NCBI GenBank assembly: GCA_022705425.1
Contig: JAKJEM010000002.1
Span: forward strand, 136,811 to 200,810
DNA length: 64,000 nucleotides
Direction: 5' to 3'
DNA from: Planctomycetota bacterium
GTDB lineage: Bacteria; Planctomycetota; Brocadiia; CAIUPP01
Below are positions 76 to 57,597 of this stretch, piece after piece. Below the pieces are notes generated by a model. That model was not told the origin of the DNA, did no database searches, and saw nothing but the letters and a program-made list of their open reading frames with translations. The position numbers and the translations under genes are program-made. Numbering within the stretch: position 1 is the first letter of the stretch; each line of letters opens with the position of its first letter.

Positions 76-1215
76 ATGAAGATGACGTGCCACACCTTCG
101 AGAAGGTTCGCGTTGAGATCGCCCCTCCGGTGGAGATCGGGCGCGCGGGCGGGCGGCTGTGGTTCCCCAACTTCCATCGTTTCGACGCCGGGCGGATTCT
201 CTGCGCGCCCACGCTGTCGGAGGACAAGGGGCAGGGGGAATGGCCGGTGGCGCTCTTCGTTACGGAGGACGCCGGCGCGCGCTGGCGGCGCCTGCGCGAC
301 CTGCCTTGCTACGGCATGGGCTCCGTGCCGCAGGAGTCGGGACGGCTGCTCATGCAGCCCTACGAACTGTGGCCGCTGCGCCCCGGGGCGCGCCGCGAGG
401 CTGCGGGGCGGGGGACCCTCCTTTCGCTTGGGGCCGGGGGCGACGCGGCCCTGGAGCGCGTGCCCGTGCGCTACCTGGGCTTCCCGCGCGACATCCAGGA
501 GTACAACGGCAATCAGTTGCTGGTTCTGGCGAACGGCCCGCTGCTGCGCCTGCCGGACGGACGCCTGCACGGCACACTCTACGGCAAGTTCATCGGCGAC
601 GAGCTCTACAGCCTGTGGTCGGTCGTCAGCGCCGACAACGGGCTGACGTGGGAGTACCAGTCCACGATCGCTCCTCCGTCGGCCGTGCCCGTTCCGCGCG
701 AGGGGGCCAATGAGGCCGACACCGTGCTGCTGCCGGACGGACGGCTGTTGTGCCTCTTCCGCGTTCTGGCGCGCACGCCCTTCTGGCGCAGCCTCAGCGC
801 CGACCTCGGTCGCACGTGGAGCGCGCCGGTGATGGTGGAGAACGCCGGGAGCGTCCTGCCGAGAATGCTCCGGCTGGAGAATGACCGCCTGCTGCTTTCC
901 GGCGGGCGCGAGGGGTTGTTCCTGTGGCTCTGCGCCGACGACGAGGGGAAGCAGTGGCGTCGCATGGACCTGGGCGAGCATCACAACGCGCACACCCCCG
1001 AGGCCCTTCGTTTCCCGCCGGATGTCATTGGAGGCGGCGTGGCCCGTTCGCCGCGGGCGTCATGCACCTTCTACACCGCCCTGATCGGTCTGGGCGCGAA
1101 CGAGGCGCTCCTGTGCTATGATCGGCTGGCCAACGGCTGGGGGGCCGCTCCCGGCCCGCACGGCGAGCAGAACGTCATCTTCTGTGTCCGTATCCGCGTG
1201 GACGCGCAGGTCTGA
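76..1215 (+). CDS. Sialidase-like BNR/Asp-box beta-propeller protein
   Basis: Predicted six-bladed-propeller protein of the sialidase (neuraminidase) superfamily, 379 aa. Three Asp-box-like motifs are visible: a degenerate one at residues 61-70 (TEDAGARW), and good matches at 185-192 (SADNGLTW) and 241-248 (SADLGRTW). No signal peptide is apparent at this start, so it may be cytosolic or the family of intracellular exo-acting glycosidases. The start has a GGAGG-type ribosome site five bases upstream. The next gene, 38 bp downstream on the same strand, is a large secreted carbohydrate-active protein, which supports a role in glycan turnover. Substrate cannot be told; many bacterial proteins of this fold act on sugars other than sialic acid. 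Confidence 0.8.
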   Translation: MKMTCHTFEKVRVEIAPPVEIGRAGGRLWFPNFHRFDAGRILCAPTLSEDKGQGEWPVALFVTEDAGARWRRLRDLPCYGMGSVPQESGRLLMQPYELWPLRPGARREAAGRGTLLSLGAGGDAALERVPVRYLGFPRDIQEYNGNQLLVLANGPLLRLPDGRLHGTLYGKFIGDELYSLWSVVSADNGLTWEYQSTIAPPSAVPVPREGANEADTVLLPDGRLLCLFRVLARTPFWRSLSADLGRTWSAPVMVENAGSVLPRMLRLENDRLLLSGGREGLFLWLCADDEGKQWRRMDLGEHHNAHTPEALRFPPDVIGGGVARSPRASCTFYTALIGLGANEALLCYDRLANGWGAAPGPHGEQNVIFCVRIRVDAQV

Positions 1216-1253
1216 CTCGGCGCGCGCCTCGCCTCGCATGAAAGGAACTGCCG

Positions 1254-4200
1254 ATGAAGACCTTCGTTGTGGCGGCCCTGGCCGTGGCGGCTTTCGGCGT
1301 GGCCCTCGACAGCGCGCAGGCGAAGGCGACCGCGCGGGAGGATACGGTCGAGAACCGCCGGCGCATGATCCTTGAGAACGATGCCGTGCGCCTGACCGTC
1401 CTGCCCGATCCGGGCGGCACGGTCATCGAGTTCACCGACAAGCGGACCGGGGTCAACTACGTCGCCGGCGGCGACAACGTCCTGAAGGGCCGCCTGGGCT
1501 GGGGTTGGAAGGACTACTACTGGCTTGAGTCGCTCGACCAACTCGGTCGGGGGGTGATGGGTCTTCCGTACAAGGGAGAGTTTCGCGACGTGCCGGGCGG
1601 CAAAGCCATCCACGTGTCCTGCGAGGTTGAGGGCCGGCGCTTCGAGCGCGAGCTGCGCCTGGCGGACCGGGGCGGCGAGCTCTACACCCTCGTCAAGATT
1701 ACGAACATCAGCGACAAGCCGTTGCGCCTGCAGTGCCGCTGGCACGCTTACAGCACCCTCGACGACGCCCTGGCCGAGAGTTCCTGCATCGTGGCCGCCG
1801 GTCCGAACGGGCAGGCGCGAAAGTGCTTCATCGGCTCCGGATGGGACCATCAGCTCATTACCGCCGACGGCTACTGGCTGGCCGCGAACTACCGCAACGG
1901 CACGGGGCTGTGGATGACCTTCAAGAAGGAGCAAAGCTCCGTCCACATGACCTGGACGGACTACAACCACGCGCGCAAGGCGCCCACCCGCGGCGCGTTC
2001 GTGGCGGAGCCGCACCCGGAGGCCGTGCTCGCCCAGCCGGGCGAATCGGCGCAGTACGAATGTTCCTTCCTGCCCTTCACCGCGCAGGATTCGCCGGAGG
2101 AGATGCCCCTGGGTGTGCTGAGCGACCCCGCCGAGCGCGAGCGCGCGCGAAGCTTCCTGCGGAACGTCAAGCCGAACCTGGCGGCCATCGGTCCCTACTC
2201 GATGACCCCCGGCCAGCCGCCCGCCGGCCTGAACGCCAAACCGGACGAGAACCGCTTCAGCTTCAGCCACCGCCGCCGCGACCGCTTCGCTCTGCGCCCC
2301 TGGGGCATTCTCGACGCCATGATGGACGTGCCGACCCTGCAGGATCGGAAGATCCGCTGCCGCTACTACGCGAGACTCTTCGACGACGTCCAGAAGCCCC
2401 TGAAGGTCTCCTTCCGCCTGCGCGCCGTGGACGACTACGGCACAGCCGTTCAGGAACAGGTCCGCGAGTACACGATTGACCCTGCGCAGGGCCGCGAACT
2501 GGACGTGCGCGACGACGTGGCGCTGGCCGGCCTGCCCGACGGGTGGTATCTCTTCACCCTCGACGGACTGGTTGAAGGTGAGAAGGACCCCGTCCACACG
2601 TACACCTGGCGTCGGCGGCTGATCGGCCAGGCCAAGCCGGCCTATGACGCGCTGTTGAAGGAGATGGTCGAGGGGCCGTTCGTGGAGCGGCCCTTCGTGA
2701 CGGCGCTACGCGCCGCGGAGTGGCCGGCGTCGGCGGGAGGCGTGGTCACGGTGCCGGTCGGCGTCGAGGACGGCAGTGGGCTGCCCCGCGCGGGCTGGCC
2801 GGTCCGGTGCGGCGTGCCCTTCGCCCAGGGGGCCTTGAAGCCCGATGCCGCCTTCGAACTGCGCGGGCCGGACGGAAAGGCCGTGCCGGTTCAGACGGCC
2901 CCGATGGCCACCTGGCTGGACGGCAGCCTGAAATGGCTGCTGGTGGACTTCCCGGCCGACGTTCCCGCCGACGGGTACGTCTTCTATACGCTTACCGGCA
3001 AGGCCGGCGCGCCGGTCACGGGGACGCCGGTCGCTGAACTCCGGGGAGAGGAGATTCGACTTCCCTCCGGCAGCTTCACCGTCTCCGGTGAGAACCTCCT
3101 GGGCCTCTTCGGTCCCGAGGACCTCTGGTGGGAGGACGGCGTTGGGCAGAAGTACTTCTTCCGCCTCCAGGGCGAAGGCGCCGGCGTTCGGATCGAGGAG
3201 AACGGCGTCAACCGCGCCGTTGTCAAGGCGGTCGGGGGATACTATAGCGACAAGGGCCGCCGCGCGTGCCTGGGCGAACTGCGCATGGAATGCTATCGGC
3301 AGCAGCCCTTCATCCGCCTGTATCACACGGTGACCTTCGCCGGCGACCCCTGGAAGGAGGGCCTGGGGAGCTACGGTATCCGCGTCCGCCTGCCGAAGGC
3401 GGCCTTTGCGTCGGCAACGGTCGAGCTCGACAAGCGCGAACTCACCGGGCGGGCGCTGACGATCTACCAACGCAGCAGCGACCACGCCGACGCGACGGCC
3501 GACGGCAAGCCGACGGCGGGGCGGCGCGCCACGGGGGCGGTCCTCTTCTCCGGCAGCGCCGGGAAGACCGCCGTGTACCACCGCGACTTCTGGCGCATGG
3601 CGCCGAAGAAGCTCGTCGCCGACGCCGCCTCCGGTACGGTGACGTTCTTCTACTGGCCCGCCGAGGCCGGGGCCATGAGCTTCCTTCCGCGCGAGGACGG
3701 CTGGATTCCGAGCAGCTCCTCCTCCGAGGCGCTGGCGGTGGGGCTCAGCCGCACGCATGAAATCCTCATCGCTCCGAAATGCACGGCCCCCGTCACGGCC
3801 ATCGAGCGGCTCTTCGGCGAGCCGGTGGTCGCCGTCGTTCCGCCGCGTTACCTCGTGCAGACGCGCGCCATGCTCCATCTCTCCGCCTACGATCCCGACC
3901 GACGCCCGATCATGGAGCGCGTCATTTCGAGCTGGTTCGACTTCTACAACGCCCACCGCGATCTTTTCGGCTGGTACGGCGAATGGACCTACGGGGCGAT
4001 CTCCGGCTTCTTCTCGCCGGGACCCTTCAACTGGTGGGACTACGGGCGCTATGCGTGGATCCTGAATGAGCAGGACATTGTCGAGACGCCGTGGCTCTGC
4101 TACCTGCGCAGCGGCGACCGCAAGTACCTCAAGTTCGCCGAAAGCAACACGCGGCACCTGATGGACGTGGCGACGATCCGGTGGAACCCCGTCTGGGCGC

Positions 4201-40660: not shown

Positions 40661-40722
40661 CGCCCGTCGTCGTCGTGCGTCGTTGTCGTCGTCCGTCGTC
40701 CGCCGTCATGCCGTCCGCATCC
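40661..40722 (+). repeat. GAC-rich intercistronic repeat, copy 3
   Basis: On the plus strand it is pyrimidine-rich (CGTCGT/CCGTC units, with core CGTCGTTGTCGTCGTCCGTC). Its complement carries the GACGACGGACGAC-AACGACG core of copy 1. It fills the gap between ftsK and the DhnA-type aldolase, about 32 bases before the ATG. Confidence 0.72.
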
Positions 40723-40754
40723 CATGTCGCCCAGCCCCTCACAGGAGTGCCCCC

Positions 40755-41552
40755 ATGCTCGGCAAGAAGATCCGCCTCGAACGTATCATCCATCGCGAGA
40801 CCGGACGTTCCGTCGTCGTTCCCATGGACCACGGCGTCACCGTCGGCCCCATCAGCGGCATCGAGGACATGCGCGAGATGGTCAACGCCATGGCCGAAGG
40901 GGGCGCGAACGCCGTCCTGGGCCACATGGGCCTGCCGCTCTACGGGCACCGCCGTTACGGCAAGGACATCGGCCTCATCCTCCACCTCTCCGGCAGCACG
41001 GTCTGGAGTCCGGACCCGAACGCCAAGGTGCTTGTGAACACCGTCGAAAACGCCCTGCGCAACGGCGCCGACGGCGTCAGCGTGCACATCAACATCGGCG
41101 CCGTCAACGAATCGCAGATGCTCCACGACCTGGGCATGGTCGCCGTGAAATGCCAGGAGTGGGGGATGCCGCTGTTGGCGATGATGTACACGCGCGGCGC
41201 GAAGTTCAAGTCCGAAAACAGCGTCGAGGGCGTGCGCCACGCCGCGCGCATCGCCGCCGAGGTCGGGGCCGACATCGTCAAGGTCAGTTACACCGGCTCC
41301 TCCGAGAGCTTCGCGCGCGTGGTCGCCGGGTGTCCCATCCCCATCCTGATCGCCGGCGGCGAGAAGTCGGAGAACGACCGTCAAGTGCTGCAATCCGTGC
41401 GCGACTCCCTCGATGCCGGCGGCGCGGGCGTCTCCATCGGGCGCAACGCCTTCCAGCACAAGCACCCCGTGCGCTTCGTCCGCGCCGTCTGCGCCATGGT
41501 CCACCGCAAGGCCGGCGTCAAGGAAGCCCTGGCCATGCTCGAGAGCGATTAG
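40755..41552 (+). CDS. DhnA-type class I aldolase (ADTH-synthase/fructose-bisphosphate aldolase family)
   Basis: Schiff-base aldolase of 265 aa. DHG at 25-27, Y145 and K176 in IVKVSYTG (the lysine that forms the imine) match the archaeal-type FBP aldolase/2-amino-3,7-dideoxy-D-threo-hept-6-ulosonate synthase family. GAGAGVSIGRNAF near 222-233 binds phosphate. The members make fructose 1,6-bisphosphate or the first intermediate of an alternative route to dehydroquinate. No partner dehydroquinate synthase II gene is in this window, so the role is open; LsrF-like or sugar-phosphate aldolase activity is also possible. AGGAG precedes the start. Confidence 0.88.
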   Translation: MLGKKIRLERIIHRETGRSVVVPMDHGVTVGPISGIEDMREMVNAMAEGGANAVLGHMGLPLYGHRRYGKDIGLILHLSGSTVWSPDPNAKVLVNTVENALRNGADGVSVHINIGAVNESQMLHDLGMVAVKCQEWGMPLLAMMYTRGAKFKSENSVEGVRHAARIAAEVGADIVKVSYTGSSESFARVVAGCPIPILIAGGEKSENDRQVLQSVRDSLDAGGAGVSIGRNAFQHKHPVRFVRAVCAMVHRKAGVKEALAMLESD

Positions 41553-44765: not shown

Positions 44766-45275
44766 TTACCAGCGGTTCGTGTGGACACGTTCCGGTGTAT
44801 AGCGGCTTTTCAAGGCCGGGGTCTCCGCCGGGCGACCAATCGGGATGAAGGCGAAGGGCATCATGTGATCGGGGATGCCGAGCACCCGGCGCAGGCCGCG
44901 CACGCGTTCCTTGTGGGGAAAGACGCCGACCCACACGGCCCCGAGTCCCAGCGCGTGGGCCGCCAGGAGGATGTTCTGCGCGGCCGCCGCGCAGCCCTGA
45001 GCCCAGAACTCGTCGGTGGACCAGCGCCGCTTGTCACTGCACACCACGATGGCCGCCCCCGCCTCGCGCGCCATGCCGGCATAGGGATGCACTCCCGGGA
45101 CTTGGTCCAGGAGCTTGCGCTCCGTCACCAACATGAACTCCCAAGGTTGCTCGTTCATGGCCGAGGGGGCCTGCATCGCCGCACGCAGGAGGGTCTCAAT
45201 CTCATCGGTTCGCAGAGATTCCGCCGTGAGCTTTCGCACGCTGCGGCGCGTCAGCAAAGCCTCGATCGCTTCCAT
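44766..45275 (-). CDS. Nitroreductase-family flavoprotein
   Basis: 169-aa FMN-dependent enzyme. The N-terminal LLTRRSVRKL (FMN phosphate), SAMNEQPWEF near 38-47 and GLGAVWVGVF near 115-124 are family hallmarks. Members reduce nitro compounds, quinones or other small electron acceptors using NAD(P)H. The ATG at 45275 is chosen because the promoter at 45321-45349 would start transcription near 45314, leaving only about nine bases if the earlier ATG at 45305 were used. GAGGGA lies upstream of the chosen start. Confidence 0.85.
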   Translation of the reverse strand: MEAIEALLTRRSVRKLTAESLRTDEIETLLRAAMQAPSAMNEQPWEFMLVTERKLLDQVPGVHPYAGMAREAGAAIVVCSDKRRWSTDEFWAQGCAAAAQNILLAAHALGLGAVWVGVFPHKERVRGLRRVLGIPDHMMPFAFIPIGRPAETPALKSRYTPERVHTNRW

Positions 45276-45320
45276 GCGGCGCCATCCCTCTTGCCAGTGG
45301 ATCATGACATTCCTGTCAAG

Positions 45321-45477: not shown

Positions 45478-47103
45478 CTACAAGTCCTTTAACCATTCCT
45501 TGATAATGGCCACTTCGGGGAGTGAGCGGGTGGACTTGAGGTGGTAGCGCGCCAGAACGACCGCCGGGAGCTGGTTCGGCGCGACGCCGTATGAGCCGAT
45601 GATCTGCGGATCGGTGACCTTGCGCACGGGAATCTCCACGCCCAGTTCCGTCACGGCCCGGTCTATGCGGCTTTGCAGTTCCCGCGTGTCCTGATCTTCG
45701 CGGCAGAGGACATAGACGGTGGCCTTGTGCCGCGCGATGTACACGCGCACCTTTTCATTGATGCGGCGCTGGATGGCGGCGATGAGTTCGTCACGCGGAG
45801 GAATGCGGCTGACGAAGGTAATCTTGCCGTCAATGCAGATCGTCGGCACGTTGCGGACCATCAGCGAGGTCATAAAGACGAGGGACTCGCGGTGCTTGAT
45901 CTTGTGCTCGCGCCAGACGACGATCCCCTCGAACTCCGGCGCCACCTTCTTGACGGCATCCACCATGTACTGGCAGGGCGCGCAGGCTTCGGAATCGAGC
46001 GTGACGATGTCCACAATGACCTTTTCCGCCTCCCCGTATTCCCCCATGTCCAAGTGACCGCCGACGGCGGTCTCGACGGCGAGGGTCTTGGCGATTTCGC
46101 GCTGATAGGCGTCGGCAACCACCGGCGCGATGGCTTCGAGGTTTTCCGGGGGAACGGCGTAGGGCAGGTCGCAGCCCGGCGCCAGCAGGAAACCCCTGGT
46201 TCCGCCAATCTCCAGGCACGCGATGGCGTTCTTCTGCGCGTCGGTCGGCTTGCCCAGCAGCAGCACGGTCGTCAACTGCATGTTTCCGCCGAAGCTCACG
46301 TTTCTCGGCAGGCAGACCTCTTTGACATACTGCAGGGGGATGTTCTCGTCCACGGAGATGTTGTCCGGCTTGCACTCGCACATGGCCACCACGTTCTGCT
46401 GCGCGTGACCGCAGACGAAGAAGGAACCCATCGCGCCGCGCCGGCGAATCTCGTCGAAGACCGGTCGCGCCGCCGGCGTCACCCACTCCGCAAACTGGTC
46501 CGCGCTGATCTGGCTCGTCATGGGGTCCACCACGGCCACCACGTCGCAGCCGGCGTCAATGTAGTACCCGGCCATGGTACGGCAGACCTCGCGCGTGAAC
46601 TCCATGAGGTCGCGCACCTGCTGGGGCTGGTCGAACATCTTCATGAAGATGTCCGTTCCCATCAGGTGAAGGGCCAGCGTGAACGGTCCGGTGATGAGGC
46701 CGTAGAGGGCGATGTCGGGGTTCGCCTTGCGGAGCTTGCGCGCCACGGAAAGGGCCAGTTTGATGCGCCCTTCCGTTGCGCCGGGGACCTTGAGGTCGCG
46801 CAGGGAGACGCCGGCCGCCAGGGGATGCGAGGTCACCGCCGGGGGGTTCTCCCGCGCCCAGGTCAGCTTGCAGCCGAGCACCTCGGCCTCGATCTGCAGA
46901 TCGAAGGTCACGGGGATGCCGTCCGGCTGGTAGCGGCGGATGGCCTCCTTGACGCCTTTGAGCATCTTGTCCTCGCGGCGCAGGACCTCCTCGGCGGTTG
47001 CGCCGATGAGGGCGCCGGCGTGGCAGCCGACGAAGGGAATCCACGGCGTCCGATCTACTTCTTCGCAGCGCAACGCCTTCAACACTAGTTCGCGCGACGT
47101 CAT
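45478..47103 (-). CDS. UroD/MtaA-like methyltransferase fused to two thioredoxin-fold domains
   Basis: 541 aa. Residues 1-345 form a uroporphyrinogen-decarboxylase-like barrel of the MtaA/CmuA cobalamin methyltransferase kind (start TSRELVLKALRCEEVDRTPW; metal-ligand region C231-G-H233, and GCDLP with C311). Residues 358-450 are a thioredoxin domain with active-site C374-A-P-C377 and cis-Pro P420. Residues 453-541 are a second thioredoxin-like fold with a lone C467 and cis-Pro P513 but no CxxC. The family is usually 340-380 aa with no such tail. Start at 47103 because earlier codons lack homology. Function is inferred: thiol-linked methyl transfer or reduction. UroD/MtaA members move methyl groups between corrinoid proteins and thiols through zinc. 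Confidence 0.82.
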   Translation of the reverse strand: MTSRELVLKALRCEEVDRTPWIPFVGCHAGALIGATAEEVLRREDKMLKGVKEAIRRYQPDGIPVTFDLQIEAEVLGCKLTWARENPPAVTSHPLAAGVSLRDLKVPGATEGRIKLALSVARKLRKANPDIALYGLITGPFTLALHLMGTDIFMKMFDQPQQVRDLMEFTREVCRTMAGYYIDAGCDVVAVVDPMTSQISADQFAEWVTPAARPVFDEIRRRGAMGSFFVCGHAQQNVVAMCECKPDNISVDENIPLQYVKEVCLPRNVSFGGNMQLTTVLLLGKPTDAQKNAIACLEIGGTRGFLLAPGCDLPYAVPPENLEAIAPVVADAYQREIAKTLAVETAVGGHLDMGEYGEAEKVIVDIVTLDSEACAPCQYMVDAVKKVAPEFEGIVVWREHKIKHRESLVFMTSLMVRNVPTICIDGKITFVSRIPPRDELIAAIQRRINEKVRVYIARHKATVYVLCREDQDTRELQSRIDRAVTELGVEIPVRKVTDPQIIGSYGVAPNQLPAVVLARYHLKSTRSLPEVAIIKEWLKDL

Positions 47104-48724: not shown

Positions 48725-50860
48725 ATGCCTCCGGTCACCGTACACGTCGTCATGCAGGCGCACCTTGATCCGGTGTGGCTCTGGCCCTGGCAGGCCGGCC
48801 TCGACGAGGCGCTGGCCACCTGCCGCACGGCCTGCGACCTGCTGGACCGCTACCCCGAAGCGGTCTTCACCGCCGGCGAGGCATGGCGTTACGAGCAATT
48901 GCGGGACCTGGCCCCGGAGGTCTTCGAGCGCGTTCGCGCCCATATCGCCGCGGGGCGCTGGGAGGCCGTCGGAGGGTGGTGGATTCAGCCGGACTGCAAC
49001 TTCCCCGAGGGCTTCGCCGTCGAGCGGCAGATCGAATCGGGCAAGCGGTGGTTCCGAGAGAACCTGGGCCTCTTTCCCGAGGTGGCGTACAACGTGGACA
49101 GCTTCGGGCACGCCGCGACGCTGCCGGGCTATCTGCGCGCCGCCGGCCAGCGCTATTACGTCATGATGCGTCCGCAGGAGCACGAAATGCCCCTGCCGGC
49201 GCGCCTCTTCCGCTGGCGGGGCTTCGCCGGAGGGCCGGAGGTCGTCGCCTTCCGAATCGCCGGCGGGTACTGCACCGGCGGGGGGGCTGTCAACCCCGAT
49301 CACGTCCGGCGCGCCTGTTCCGAACTGCCCGAGGGGGTCGCGCACACGATGTGCTTCCTCGGCGTCGGCGATCACGGCGGGGGAATGACCGCGAGCCTGA
49401 TCGAATGGGTCCGCGAGAATGCCGGACGGATCGAAGGATGCCGCCTCGTCTTCTCCAGCCCGGCGCGCTTCTTCAAGGCCGTGATGCCCTTCGAGCGACG
49501 TCTGCCGCGCGTCACCGGCGAACTCCAGATGCACGCCGTGGGCTGCTACAGCGTCGAGCGCGGGATCAAGACGCGCCTGCGCCGCGCTGAACACCTCCTG
49601 CGCCAGGCCGAGACCGTCGCCGAGGCCGCCGGGGCCGCGCCGGGGGACTGGGCCGCGCTCGAGGAAGCCTGGCGGCTCGTCGCCTTCAACGCCTTCCACG
49701 ACACCCTCGGCGGCACGTGCATCCCCTCCGCCTATCCGGCGCAATACGACCAACTCGGCGCGGCCGCCACGGTGGCCGACCAGATTCTCCAAACCGGGCT
49801 GCGCCGACGCCTGTGCGCCCTGCCCGACGACCTCCTTCAGCGCATCGTGCTGCTGAACGCCTCCGATGCGCCCTTCTCCGGCTGGGTGGAGCACGAGCCC
49901 TGGACGCAATGGCGACGTTGGGAACCGGAGTGGCGTCTGCTCGATGAACGGGGGCGCGCCGTGCCCTTCCAACTCCTGCCGTCGGAGGCCGTGGCCGGAC
50001 GCATTCCGCGGCTGCTCTTGCGACTCGAGGCCGCCCCCGGCGCGTTGCGCGTGTTGCGCATCGAGCGTGCGGGCGGCGGCAGGGTGCGCGGCGGCGTATC
50101 AGCGGACGACGCCGTCGTCTCCAACACCCGCGGGGTCCGCCTTTCGGCGGCAGAGGGGGCGGCGCATCTTCGCGCGGGGGGGCTTGCCCTTGCACCCCGG
50201 CTGGAGTTGATCGAAGACCACTCCGACACCTGGTCGCACGGCATGGACCGCTATCCCGAAGGTCCGGCCCGGCGGGCGACGTGGGATGCCCTTTGCGCCG
50301 GCGAGAACGGCCCGCTGATGGCCTCACTCCATCAGAGCGGGCGCATCGGCGACAGCGTCCTTCACGCGGAATGGCGAGTCTATGCCGGAGAACCCTTCAT
50401 CGAGCTGCGCCTGGGCGTTCACTGGCGCGAGCGGCAGAAGGCGCTCAAGCTGACTCTTCCCTTGCAGGGGCGTCCGGCGCAGCGGCGCGACGGGATTCCC
50501 GGCGGGAGCCTCGTGCGCCCGAACACCGGACGAGAATGCCCCATGCGCGATTGGACCCTTTGCGGGCGCGGGGGCCGCGCGTTCGGTCTGGTCGCGCCCG
50601 ATGCCTGGGCCGTGGACGCCACTCCGGCCCGTCTGCGCGTGACGCTGCTGCGCAGCCCCTGGATGGCCCACCATGGTCCCCGGCGCGACATTCCCCCCGG
50701 CGCGCGCGTGGCGGACCAAGGCGAACACTTCTTCCGCTTTCGCTTCTTTGCCGGGGCCGGAGTGACGCCGGCCCTTCTCGAAAGCCATGCCCTGGCCCTG
50801 CATCGGCCTCCGGTTGCGGCGGACCTCACGCGCGGGATGCCCCGTCGTTGCGAGGCGTAG
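48725..50860 (+). CDS. GH38 alpha-mannosidase-like glycosidase
   Basis: 711-aa enzyme that probably hydrolyses terminal alpha-mannosides. The N-terminal 7-stranded barrel has the zinc ligands H13 and D15 (QAHLDPVWLW), and D125 in YNVDSFGH, the catalytic nucleophile; WWIQPDCNFPEG at 85-96 is also a family hallmark. A three-helix bundle (about 270-360) and beta-sandwich domains complete the usual layout. No signal peptide, so cytosolic. Lies 69 bp after the ADP-ribosylglycohydrolase-family gene. Converges with the esterase with 17 bp between. Deviates from the canonical human and E. coli MngB sequences but active-site residues are intact. Confidence 0.87.
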   Translation: MPPVTVHVVMQAHLDPVWLWPWQAGLDEALATCRTACDLLDRYPEAVFTAGEAWRYEQLRDLAPEVFERVRAHIAAGRWEAVGGWWIQPDCNFPEGFAVERQIESGKRWFRENLGLFPEVAYNVDSFGHAATLPGYLRAAGQRYYVMMRPQEHEMPLPARLFRWRGFAGGPEVVAFRIAGGYCTGGGAVNPDHVRRACSELPEGVAHTMCFLGVGDHGGGMTASLIEWVRENAGRIEGCRLVFSSPARFFKAVMPFERRLPRVTGELQMHAVGCYSVERGIKTRLRRAEHLLRQAETVAEAAGAAPGDWAALEEAWRLVAFNAFHDTLGGTCIPSAYPAQYDQLGAAATVADQILQTGLRRRLCALPDDLLQRIVLLNASDAPFSGWVEHEPWTQWRRWEPEWRLLDERGRAVPFQLLPSEAVAGRIPRLLLRLEAAPGALRVLRIERAGGGRVRGGVSADDAVVSNTRGVRLSAAEGAAHLRAGGLALAPRLELIEDHSDTWSHGMDRYPEGPARRATWDALCAGENGPLMASLHQSGRIGDSVLHAEWRVYAGEPFIELRLGVHWRERQKALKLTLPLQGRPAQRRDGIPGGSLVRPNTGRECPMRDWTLCGRGGRAFGLVAPDAWAVDATPARLRVTLLRSPWMAHHGPRRDIPPGARVADQGEHFFRFRFFAGAGVTPALLESHALALHRPPVAADLTRGMPRRCEA

Positions 50861-50877
50861 CATCGGACGCCGGGCGC

Positions 50878-51690
50878 TCAGAATCCCATCTGCTGCAGCC
50901 AGGTGATGCACAGCTCCGGCCAGACGGCCGCGTCCGGCAGTTCACCCGCCAGGCCCACCCCGTGCCGTCCCTTGGGAAAGACGTGCAGCGCAAAGGGACG
51001 CTTGCAGCGGCTCATGGCCTGCGCAAAGAGCAGGGCGTTCTCCACCGGCACGCCGCCGTCGTCGGCGGTGTGCCAGAGAAAGGCGGGGGGGGTCTGCGGC
51101 GTGACGGACAACTCGTTCGAGAGCGACTGGCGCAGCGCCTCGGGGGCGTCCGGGCCCAGGAGGTTGTTCGCCGAGCCCTTGTGTCCGAAGGCCCCGAAGC
51201 TGATGACGGCATAGCAGAGGATTCCCGCGTCCGGGCGGCAGCCTTGCCGCTCGACAGGGTCCGGGGACTCAGGCCGACCGGCGTCAAAGTGCGTCATGGC
51301 CGTCGCGGTCAGGTGTCCCCCGGCTGAGAAGCCGAGGATTGCCACGCGGTCGGGCCGCACGCGCCATTCCGCCGCGTGATGGCGCACCAGGCGTATGGCG
51401 CGCTGCGCGTCCATCAGGGGCGCCGGGTGCCGGTGCGGGGCGACGCGATACTTGAGGACGAAGCCGTGAATTCCCGCTGCCGTGAACCGGTCGGCCACGG
51501 GGATGCCCTCGTGGTCGGCCAGCCGGGCGTACCCGCCGCCGGGGCACACGATGACCGCCCCGCGCGGCTCGCGTCCGGCGGCCGGGCGGGGGATCAGCAC
51601 GGGCTGGATCTCGGCGCGTACGCCATCGGGCTCCGGCGCGCGTCCGGGCCATAGATTCATCGTTCCGTCGTCGTTCAGCGTGATGGGCAT
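50878..51690 (-). CDS. BD-FAE-type alpha/beta-hydrolase (acetyl esterase/xylan esterase family)
   Basis: 270-aa serine esterase. CPGGGYARLADHEG at 49-62 is the oxyanion-hole motif of the family, S122 in GFSAGG is the nucleophile, and GRHGVGL near the C-terminus gives the histidine. The DADDGG-type Asp segment (TADDGGVPVENALLF near 210) completes the triad. Members deacetylate xylan and other plant esters. Start at 51690 is supported by the promoter, which excludes an earlier one at 51909. No signal peptide. Confidence 0.86.
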   Translation of the reverse strand: MPITLNDDGTMNLWPGRAPEPDGVRAEIQPVLIPRPAAGREPRGAVIVCPGGGYARLADHEGIPVADRFTAAGIHGFVLKYRVAPHRHPAPLMDAQRAIRLVRHHAAEWRVRPDRVAILGFSAGGHLTATAMTHFDAGRPESPDPVERQGCRPDAGILCYAVISFGAFGHKGSANNLLGPDAPEALRQSLSNELSVTPQTPPAFLWHTADDGGVPVENALLFAQAMSRCKRPFALHVFPKGRHGVGLAGELPDAAVWPELCITWLQQMGF

Positions 51691-51731
51691 GCTCCTTCCT
51701 TTCTGTTCCATCGAGGCGCGAGCGTACGCCG

Positions 51732-51761
51732 AATGTACACTACTTCCGGGCGGGGACTCAA
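51732..51761 (-). promoter_or_regulatory. Predicted promoter of the BD-FAE hydrolase gene
   Basis: Minus strand TTGAGT (51756-51761), 18-bp spacer, TACATT (51732-51737); leader about 35 bases. Confidence 0.5.
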
Positions 51762-51776
51762 GCGCGACCGCCGGCC

Positions 51777-51805
51777 TTGCGGTAGATGCGCACACGGGGC
51801 ATAAT
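51777..51805 (+). promoter_or_regulatory. Predicted promoter of the enolase-superfamily gene
   Basis: TTGCGG (51777-51782), 17-bp spacer, CATAAT (51800-51805). Transcription from about 51812 favours the ATG at 51855 and excludes 51786. Confidence 0.55.
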
Positions 51806-51854
51806 GACACCGCGATCCTATTCGAGGTTGCCACCGCCGACGGAGACCGCGCCG

Positions 51855-53258
51855 ATGAGCAAGAGCACCGATGTGCGCGTTGTGGATTCGTGCCTGTACT
51901 TTCTTCCACTGGAGTTTCGCCTGCCGCTGAAGTTCGGGACCGAGACGGTTACACGCGCATCGTGCGCGCGCGTCGGCCTGCGCGTCGAGGGGCGCGACGG
52001 GCGCATCGCCGAAGGATGGGGGGAGACGCCGCTGAGCGTCAGCTGGGTGTGGCCTTCGGCGCTGTCCTGCGAGGCGCGCGAACAGGCGCTGCAGGGCCTG
52101 TGCCGGGACCTGGCGGCGGCGTGGCGCAGTTTCGCCGAGCGCGGACACCCGATCGAGGTCGGCCACGCCTTCATCGAAGGTCCGCTGCCGGCCTGCCTGA
52201 AGCGCCTGAACGCCCAGCGCGCCGCCGACGCTCAGGCTCCCGGACTGGCCGCGCTGGTCTGCAACTCCGCCTTCGACCTCGCCCTCCACGACGCCTACGG
52301 CATCCTCCACGACGCGCCGACGTACGAAACCTACAACGCCGCGTGGATGAACCGCGACCTGGCCGCCTGGCTGACGCCCGCCGAGGGCGCGGAGGTCTCC
52401 TTTGCGGGGCGCTATCCGCGCGACTTCCTCGTTCGGCCCCGGCCCGCGCGGCTGCCCGCCTGGCATCTGGTGGGGGGCAAGGACGCGGTGGACCCGTCGG
52501 AACTCACCGGGACGGAGCCGAAGGACGGTCATCCCGTGCTCCTGCGCGACTGGATCCGCCGCGATGGGCTCAAGTGTCTGAAGATCAAACTCCGCGGGAA
52601 CGACGCCGCCTGGGACTACGACCGCACCGTGCAGATCGGCCGTGCGGCGATCGAGGAGGGGGTGGACTGGCTGACGGCCGATTTCAACTGCACCGTCACC
52701 GACCCGTCCTACGTCAACGCCATCCTGGATCGCCTGGTGATCGAGGAGCCGCGAATCTACGGGATGATCCTCTACGTCGAGCAGCCCTTTCCGTACGACC
52801 TTGAGTCGAACCGGATTGACGTCCACTCCGTATCGGCGCGCAAGCCGCTCTTCATGGACGAAAGCGCGCACGACTGGCATCTGGTGCGGCTGGGGCGCTC
52901 GCTGGGCTGGACGGGGGTGGCGCTCAAGACCTGCAAGACGCAGACGGGCGCGTTGCTGAGCCTGTGCTGGGCGAAGGCGCACGGCATGACGCTGATGGTG
53001 CAGGACCTGACGAATCCGATGCTGGCGCAGGTTCCGCACGCCCTGCTGGCGGCGCACGCGGGGACCATTATGGGCGTGGAGACGAACGCCATGCAGTTCT
53101 ACCCCGACGTCTCCGCCCCGGAAGCCGCCGTTCATCCCGGTCTCTATCGCCGGCGCGAGGGCGTTGTGGACCTTTCCACCGTGCGCGGGCCCGGGTTCGG
53201 TTATCGGTTGGCCGAGATGCGTCGCGTCCTGCCGCCGCCGGCGGCGGCCTTCGGGTGA
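51855..53258 (+). CDS. Enolase-superfamily enzyme (mandelate racemase/muconate lactonizing type)
   Basis: 467-aa enzyme of the MR/MLE branch, which abstracts the alpha-proton of a carboxylate to dehydrate, racemise or cycloisomerise it. Active-site positions: K243/K245 (LKIKLR, general base on one face), metal ligands D276 (ADFNC), E309 (YVEQP) and D335/E336 (MDES), and K358 or K361 opposite (ALKTCKTQ). This is the KxK...K arrangement of MLE/dipeptide-epimerase or sugar-acid enzymes. A long insert (about 155-235) is unusual for the family, which is mostly 360-400 aa. Neighbouring glycan genes make a sugar-acid substrate plausible. GGAGA precedes the start. Confidence 0.82.
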   Translation: MSKSTDVRVVDSCLYFLPLEFRLPLKFGTETVTRASCARVGLRVEGRDGRIAEGWGETPLSVSWVWPSALSCEAREQALQGLCRDLAAAWRSFAERGHPIEVGHAFIEGPLPACLKRLNAQRAADAQAPGLAALVCNSAFDLALHDAYGILHDAPTYETYNAAWMNRDLAAWLTPAEGAEVSFAGRYPRDFLVRPRPARLPAWHLVGGKDAVDPSELTGTEPKDGHPVLLRDWIRRDGLKCLKIKLRGNDAAWDYDRTVQIGRAAIEEGVDWLTADFNCTVTDPSYVNAILDRLVIEEPRIYGMILYVEQPFPYDLESNRIDVHSVSARKPLFMDESAHDWHLVRLGRSLGWTGVALKTCKTQTGALLSLCWAKAHGMTLMVQDLTNPMLAQVPHALLAAHAGTIMGVETNAMQFYPDVSAPEAAVHPGLYRRREGVVDLSTVRGPGFGYRLAEMRRVLPPPAAAFG

Positions 53259-56434: not shown

Positions 56435-57597
56435 GTGACGGCGCGTTTCCCGTGGTCACTCTGACGGGCCCGCGTCAGTCCGGCAAGACCACGCTGGTGC
56501 GCTCCGTCTTCGGCGACTACGCGTACGTGTCGCTCGATCAGCCGGACCACCGGCGCTTCGCCCTGGAGGACCCGCGCGGCTTTCTCGGCCAGTTCAAGAG
56601 CCCCGTCATTCTGGACGAAGCGCAACGCGCCCCGGAGCTCTTCTCGTACATCCAGACGATTGTGGACGACCGACCGGCGCGCCCGGGGCGCTTCATTCTC
56701 GCGGGCTCGCAGAACTTCCTGCTCCTGGAGAGCATCGCGCAGTCGCTGGCGGGCCGCTGTGCCGTGCTCCACCTGCTTCCTCTCTCCTTGGCGGAGCTTT
56801 GCGGGCGTCGCCCGCTCCTGCTGGACACCCTGGGACGCCGCCTGCCGAAATCCGCTGTGCCGCCGGCGCGCGGCGTGTTGGAGACGCTGCACGCGGGATT
56901 CTATCCCCGCATCCACGACCGGGGCCTTGCGGCGCGCGACTGGCTGGCCGGCTACTACCGGACCTACGTTGAGCGGGATGTCCGCCAGGTTCTAAATCTG
57001 GGCGACCTCGAAACCTTTGGGCGTTTCACGCGCCTCTGCGCCGGGCGGTGCGGCCAACTCGTCAACCTCGTCGGTCTGGCCTAAGACTGCGGCATCTCGC
57101 ATACCACCGCGCGGCGGTGGCTCTCGGTGCTGGAGGCGGCCTTTCTCGTCACGCTCCTGCGCCCGCATCATCGCAACTTCGGGAAGCGCCTGATCAAGAA
57201 CCCCAAGCTGTACTTCCTTGACCCCGGCCTGCTGTGCTATCTGCTGGACATCCGGTCCGCCGCGGAGTTGTTGCATCGCGCGGAGCGCGGCGCGGTCTTC
57301 GAGAGCTTTGTGGTCTCGGAGTTCTGCAAGAACTACCTGCACCGCGGGGAGACACCCCGGTTGCACTTCTGGCGCGATTCAGGCGCGCACGAAGTGGACC
57401 TTGTGGCGGACCGCGGGGCCGAGTGGGTGCCGGTCGAGATCAAGTCCGCGCAGACCGTCGCGCCGGGATTCTTCGACAACCTCGCCTGGTGGCGGAAGCT
57501 GGCCGGGCAGGAGAACGGGCCCGCTGCCCTGATCTACGGCGGCGATGACATGTACCGCCGAGGGGGTGTGTGCGTCTATCCCTGGCGCGTCCTCTGA
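56435..57597 (+). pseudogene. Decayed AAA+ ATPase of the DUF4143 family
   Basis: About 385 codons that match the ATPase/DUF4143 family, but broken in at least two places. Walker A (VVTLTGPRQSGKTTL, from 56452) and Walker B/sensor region (VILDEAQRAPEL, FILAGSQNF) are in one frame. The preceding residues (RVTARFP) are in the neighbouring frame, as if one C were lost at 56449-56451, and no good start codon is found. A TAA at 57082-57084 interrupts the LASDCGIS helix-turn region (a serine codon expected); the same frame continues intact to 57597 with the nuclease-like DUF4143 end (SGAHEVDLVADRG, VEIKSAQ). Two lesions suggest real decay rather than one sequencing error. Confidence 0.85.

Follow-up and report, generated by a model that had tools for sequence, protein, structure and literature searches.

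A UroD-type methyltransferase barrel fused to two thioredoxin folds, with an altered metal site and a co-occurring CobW-family GTPase, in Planctomycetota and other bacteria

The gene at positions 45478 to 47103 of the window (the whole stretch of DNA analyzed, 64,000 nucleotides, from a Planctomycetota bacterium) lies on the minus strand and, by open-frame reading, forms one stop-free frame for a protein of 541 amino acids, in which a barrel of the UroD/MtaA type is followed by two thioredoxin folds. Its start codon is at 47103 and its stop codon occupies 45478-45480. A longer in-frame open reading frame reaches 47265, but translation probably begins with the ATG at 47103, where close homologues start as well. 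The features of the gene are the following.

45478..47103, minus strand: UroD-Trx-Trx protein, 541 aa (open frame; Pfam and NCBIfam; same domain order in 81 full-length sequences)
46099..47103, minus strand: UroD/MtaA-type TIM barrel, residues 1-335 (PF01208, E 4.5e-57; model match to Methanosarcina mazei MtaA, 4ay7)
47020..47022, minus strand: H28, candidate replacement metal ligand (invariant, including the one-thioredoxin clade)
46411..46419, minus strand: F229-V-C231, with F in place of MtaA ligand H237 and C231 aligned with C239 (4ay7 alignment; F and C invariant)
46171..46173, minus strand: C311, putative second metal-ligand cysteine, MtaA C316 (invariant; 4ay7 alignment)
45754..46023, minus strand: thioredoxin domain 1, residues ~361-450, with CAPC and the cis-Pro motif NVPT (P420) (Thioredoxin_3; matches 1fo5 and 1nho)
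45973..45984, minus strand: redox motif C374-A-P-C377 (both cysteines invariant in 81 full-length and 6 one-thioredoxin members)
45481..45729, minus strand: thioredoxin-like domain 2, residues ~459-541 (MTH895 1ilo profile match; secondary structure in two models; CxxC count)

Both a profile match above cut-off (URO-D PF01208 at residues 2-329, 194.1 bits versus a cut-off of 23.9) and the barrel fold place the fused protein in the UroD superfamily. The NCBIfam model nearest to the barrel, mtaA_cmuA (TIGR01463), scored 150.9 bits versus a cut-off of 235.4, and the fused protein scored under every NCBIfam cut-off. Thioredoxin domain 1 matched Thioredoxin_3 (PF13192, residues 371-443, E 4.3e-10) and possesses the CxxC and cis-Pro of a thioredoxin, C374, C377, and P420 all being invariant. 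Domain 2 is assigned by fold similarity without a CxxC, through a profile match of the second C-terminal unit to MTH895 (1ilo, E 1e-4 to 1.8e-5); the CxxC was missing in 75 of the 81 full-length members. In an AlphaFold2 model of the whole protein (52 homologues; mean pLDDT 88, pTM 0.75), the UroD barrel was followed by two alpha/beta units with thioredoxin-like strand and helix order, and the modeled barrel matched M. mazei MtaA with a TM-score of 0.91 over the target and an rmsd of 2.0. When modeled alone, the C-terminal half was predicted at lower confidence (pLDDT 83, pTM 0.52) and resembled proteins with tandem thioredoxin folds, among them the PDI a-b domains, the QSOX1 oxidoreductase fragment, and Pyrococcus furiosus PDO (1a8l). 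The PDI a-b pair likewise combines one redox-active and one silent domain, but the domains of these proteins are oriented otherwise (rmsd ~14 to 21 over both), and here the pair is fused to a UroD barrel. An earlier reading of this DNA from sequence only had described a UroD barrel, a CAPC thioredoxin, and a CxxC-less thioredoxin fold in a single protein; this description was borne out by Pfam, the 1ilo match, and AlphaFold2, including the thioredoxin-like nature of the C-terminal part.

A scan of genome contigs covering 84,980 species yielded at least 487 relatives, of which the best 80 kept loci were analyzed. These best 80 cover all or nearly all of the query's length and, together with the window protein, form the full-length set (n = 81). 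The full-length fusion spans about ten phyla (Planctomycetota, Lentisphaerota, Bacteroidota, KSB1, Calditrichota, Fibrobacterota, Chlamydiota, SAR324, Spirochaetota, and Bacillota), and cultured isolates (Draconibacterium, Mariniphaga, and Maribellus) are among its carriers. The domain layout had been proposed to be new: no characterized homologue was found, but the layout is that of a conserved family and is not peculiar to one genome. Both the search and a quick tree grouped the window gene most closely with a Victivallales homologue (74% identity). A sister clade of ~460 aa, with the barrel and one thioredoxin, formed a separate branch in the quick tree and occurs in the home phylum (Planctomycetota) and in one Subdoligranulum record. 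Residues H28, H93, C231, E253, C311, D312, C374, C377, and P420 were invariant in all 81 full-length sequences. Over the same sequences, the mean majority fraction was 0.83 for thioredoxin 1, 0.70 for the barrel, and 0.51 for thioredoxin 2, so that constraint is strongest on thioredoxin 1. A barrel-only query of 294 home-phylum genomes returned the same eleven fusion-carrying genomes (48 to 65% identity) and no further barrel-clade match at E 1e-32 or better outside these eleven; their open frames are long enough for the thioredoxin, the frame in G195 being truncated at its start and not at the thioredoxin end. The barrel clade is always fused to thioredoxin in the sampled home phylum, and, judged by these sequences, the fusion is real and old.

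Upon alignment to 4ay7, F229 fell on the ligand histidine and C231 and C311 on the two ligand cysteines, the 4ay7 ligands being, with the alignment offset, H237, C239, and C316 in native numbering. The His-x-Cys...Cys zinc site of the TIGR01463 type was not found; here the pattern is F229-V-C231...C311. For comparison, 68 other UroD-type proteins were drawn from relatives as well as from the same loci. Position 229 was His in 65 of these proteins, Ser in two, and a gap in one, versus an invariant Phe in the fusion family, and position 28 was His in 1 of the 68 (L005, in which the ligand His is also kept). Because of this pattern, one ligand appears to have been lost and an invariant candidate replacement gained in the clade, and H28 is probably the replacement metal ligand. 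F229 and H28 could also be a sign of a different metal or chemistry or of no metal. The sequence-only reading was right that the metal site is unusual, and C231 and C311 proved invariant, but its CGH motif (residues 231 to 233) does not hold, since H233 varies: 76 of 81 members have His and the others Tyr or Gln, while the one-thioredoxin clade has Asn or Asp there. The actual change is from His to Phe229, along with the invariant H28.

Neighborhoods were counted over 87 loci. In 68 of these, a CobW-family GTPase, a feature absent from the sequence-only reading, was encoded nearby on the same strand, and in 26 of 44 directly adjacent pairs its start overlapped the UroD stop by 19 to 31 bases. 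The family signature of COG0523/CobW is GCxCC (PMC2770081); the partner GTPase matched the cobW profile but lacked the CxCC motif, reading GSxFCxC instead in all 68 of the 68 clustered partners. Among the 294 home-phylum genomes, a GSxFCxC CobW was present in 11 of 11 fusion carriers versus 1 of 283 noncarriers (Fisher P = 4e-19, with shared ancestry ignored and CobW matches below the top 30 loci assumed to be canonical). In the lone noncarrier with this motif among the top 30 CobW loci (G316), the gene lies at a contig edge, and an upstream partner could therefore be missing. The fusion was found in 1 of 297 genomes of the Bacteroidota sample (G343, the center of the search), the CobW of which has the sequence GSVFCVC; GCxCC was read at 19 of the 20 remaining best CobW loci in this sample, and one (L165) was unreadable by pattern. 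In the window's genome, the GSxFCxC CobW is unlinked to the fusion gene, being located on contig C44, so that the fusion and CobW co-occur even without linkage. CobW-type GTPases are known beside mtaA/mtaB, and in the corrinoid-methyltransferase-linked subfamily 13 of COG0523 a CobW-type gene lies beside UroD-type methyltransferase genes, as it does here (PMC2770081). The present system differs in the signature (GCxCC to GSxFCxC, compared with that of the family and not with subfamily 13's own) and in having a client that bears thioredoxin.

A corrinoid protein was encoded nearby in 39 of the 87 loci (with the D-x-H-x-x-G motif in 39 of 39), a homocysteine S-methyltransferase in 33 (with the GGCCGT zinc motif intact in 32 of 33), and a Met_synt_B12-like corrinoid-activation protein in 15, in agreement with the link to corrinoid methyl transfer drawn earlier. 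Some operons also contain a RACo protein or a second UroD with HxC. These extra genes come mostly from Bacteroidota, in which a corrinoid protein was found within three genes in 33 of 38 loci and the S-methyltransferase in 29 of 38; corrinoid-system genes were accordingly present in 33 of the 38 Bacteroidota loci and in a few others (with an activase in some). The Bacteroidota operon comprises the fusion, CobW, the corrinoid protein, homocysteine S-methyltransferase, and a corrinoid activase. Clostridial and spirochaete members lie near formate-tetrahydrofolate ligase or MTHFR-like and ETF genes. In most Planctomycetota members CobW alone adjoins, and the corrinoid link therefore rests on homology there.

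No corrinoid gene adjoins the UroD-Trx-Trx gene in the window. The window's genome encodes a homocysteine S-methyltransferase on C111, a pterin-binding gene on C209, and a corrinoid gene on C211, ~145 kb from the UroD-Trx-Trx gene. Full-length MetH was not found in this genome, only split parts, and the split methionine synthase of marine bacteria likewise consists of separate parts (PMC12478193). Among carrier genomes, MetH was over the cut-off in 17 of 27, and because these carry full-length MetH, the operon was rejected as a simple MetH substitute. Rfam gave only tRNAs, and no B12 or SAM riboswitch, for the window and for 17 loci. The nitroreductase downstream (44766-45305) was rejected as BluB (69 bits versus a cut-off of 150).

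Several neighborhoods have features of their own. The 25.7-kb circular Subdoligranulum record (L032, OY725850.1) has at 119-3501 a one-thioredoxin homologue, a BioB-like radical SAM protein, and a CobW reading GSIFCAC, an operon that differs from the Bacteroidota operon. The corrinoid protein on C211 of G000 (near 37.2 to 40.2 kb; L124, 9230-12180) bears an Ala/Lys-rich C-terminal tail; its gene is immediately upstream of that for a PocR-GAF-SpoIIE sensor, and corrinoid-linked signaling is possible. In two Chlamydiota loci (L058 and L064), the fusion adjoins a rhamnosidase-type glycosidase, a rhamnose isomerase, and a UroD-type gene with HSDG replacing HxCG.

Earlier work has described MtaA-type methyltransferases, mlp clusters, and CobW partners (PMC10418091, PMC2770081, PMC13222342). 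With the soluble coenzyme M methyltransferases MtaA, MtbA, and MtsA (4ay7; TIGR01463), the fused protein shares the barrel fold, two ligand cysteines, and, in many members, corrinoid partners, but its ligand His is replaced by Phe, H28 is gained, two thioredoxin folds are fused, and its scores are below the NCBIfam cut-offs. Mlps of type 1 mlp clusters, described by Kountz and Balskus, resemble it in being bacterial UroD-superfamily methyltransferases encoded together with a corrinoid protein and a reductive activase, in many cases with no folate methyltransferase; they are almost all His-Cys-Cys (PMC10418091), whereas the fused protein is without the ligand His. The main text of that paper mentions neither CobW nor a thioredoxin fusion (its single use of the word is in the title of a reference). 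Lacking the ligand His, the fused protein does not fit the set that defines a type 1 mlp cluster (Mlp2 and Mlp3, both His-Cys-Cys, together with a corrinoid protein and a Ram/RACE protein). In the split methionine synthase/glycine betaine demethylase MtgBCDE, a corrinoid protein is shared by the substrate and homocysteine methyltransferases, but the substrate enzyme is of the pfam06253 type (MtgB) and not a UroD-thioredoxin protein (PMC12478193). No description of a UroD-thioredoxin fusion that combines such a metal site with such a CobW was found in the open-access literature searched.

The mechanism that we favor, and to which we give about an even chance, is that of a UroD/MtaA-type methyltransferase linked to corrinoids and equipped with a thiol/disulfide module of its own and a dedicated CobW metal chaperone. 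The barrel would hold a metal via C231, C311, and probably H28 and would shuttle a methyl group between a methyl-corrinoid protein and a substrate with a soft atom. The soft atom is most likely sulfur, which is favored because two-cysteine metal sites in the UroD superfamily pair with S or Se and not with O substrates (PMC10418091); against a sulfur substrate, some members have carbohydrate genes or a GntP permease nearby, which would be consistent with a sugar or sugar acid bearing an O-methyl group. The thioredoxin pair may act as a PDI-like a-b module, in which domain 1 (CAPC) would perform thiol-disulfide exchange and domain 2 would be redox silent, and this module would serve either to reduce the disulfide form of the substrate or to maintain the cysteines of the metal site in reduced form for loading. 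The dedicated CobW-family GTPase, with its changed GSxFCxC motif, would supply the metal. Where an operon encodes a homocysteine S-methyltransferase that has no folate methyltransferase next to it, homocysteine is probably the final acceptor of the methyl group, yielding methionine. Much more tentatively, the system may represent a distinct class, in which the metal sites of chaperone (GCxCC to GSxFCxC) and client (HxC to FxC, with H28) have changed together, the PDI-like module links the reduction of a disulfide with methyl transfer, and methionine is made from a methyl-sulfur compound by a route independent of folate.

Methyl groups enter methanogenesis, acetogenesis, and methionine synthesis through UroD-type methyltransferases, and for many bacterial members of this group no substrate is known. 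The family described here suggests a variant of vitamin-B12-linked methyl transfer that is apparently undescribed despite its presence in about ten phyla, with a redox domain more constrained than the catalytic barrel and a metal chaperone tied to one client. It offers a testable pair for how CobW-family GTPases choose client and metal and for why a methyltransferase needs a private thiol-disulfide module.

In the nearest rival to the favored mechanism, the thioredoxin has a role in metal loading alone: domain 1 would dock on CobW, keep C231 and C311 reduced, and relay the metal, with no part in the methyl-transfer cycle. The thioredoxin-bearing clade and the GSxFCxC CobW co-occur almost perfectly, with genes that often overlap, and domain 1 is conserved above the barrel, as expected of a docking surface. 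We nevertheless consider this explanation rather unlikely, given that canonical MtaA-type genes also associate with CobW-type GTPases (PMC2770081), yet are not known to bear thioredoxin, and that a permanent private thioredoxin is not usually needed to reduce ligand cysteines. The enzyme might instead demethylate a methylated sugar or sugar acid, with the corrinoid protein and homocysteine S-methyltransferase salvaging the methyl group. Neighbors that fit such a substrate include a rhamnosidase and a rhamnose isomerase (Chlamydiota), GH120, melibiase-type, and GH28 enzymes (elsewhere), a GntP-type permease (several Bacteroidota operons), and an AraC regulator beside Bacteroidota operons, and aryl-ether O-demethylases exist in the UroD superfamily (PMC13222342). 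Carrier genomes are probably rich in carbohydrate genes, however, so that adjacency may be due to chance, and two Cys ligands favor S or Se (PMC10418091), while thioredoxin has no obvious role in ether cleavage; demethylation of a sugar is accordingly less probable still than a thioredoxin for loading only. Recycling of methyl selenide, as proposed for type 1 mlp gene clusters, is very improbable: the related Mlp2 methylates selenide in vitro (PMC10418091), but selD was over the cut-off in just 14 of 27 carrier genomes and under it in the window's genome and in the other tested Planctomycetota, Lentisphaerota, Chlamydiota, and Bacillota carriers, and the metal site is Phe-Cys-Cys, not His-Cys-Cys. 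On the same selD co-occurrence a general selenium role was rejected, and the earlier suggestion of a role with arsenic or selenium species was left unsupported. Finally, although the window's assembly consists of 288 contigs, a chance or assembly join of two genes was rejected as having next to no probability, the same domain order having been found in 80 other full-length homologues from independent assemblies and isolates (Draconibacterium, Mariniphaga, and Maribellus).

Other parts of the window contain further features. Positions 48725-53258 are carbohydrate related, with mannosylglycerate-hydrolase-like, pectin-acetylesterase-like, and enolase-superfamily-like genes (the last by eye, with no family match). 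An apparent single ATPase gene at 56452-57597 is split over two consecutive frames (56452-57084 and 57127-57597), neither of which matches an NCBIfam model, perhaps as a result of a frameshift or as a pseudogene. At 40683-41552, a DhnA-type aldolase scored over the NCBIfam cut-off for 2-amino-3,7-dideoxy-D-threo-hept-6-ulosonate synthase, the enzyme of the first step in the archaeal-type route to aromatic amino acids.
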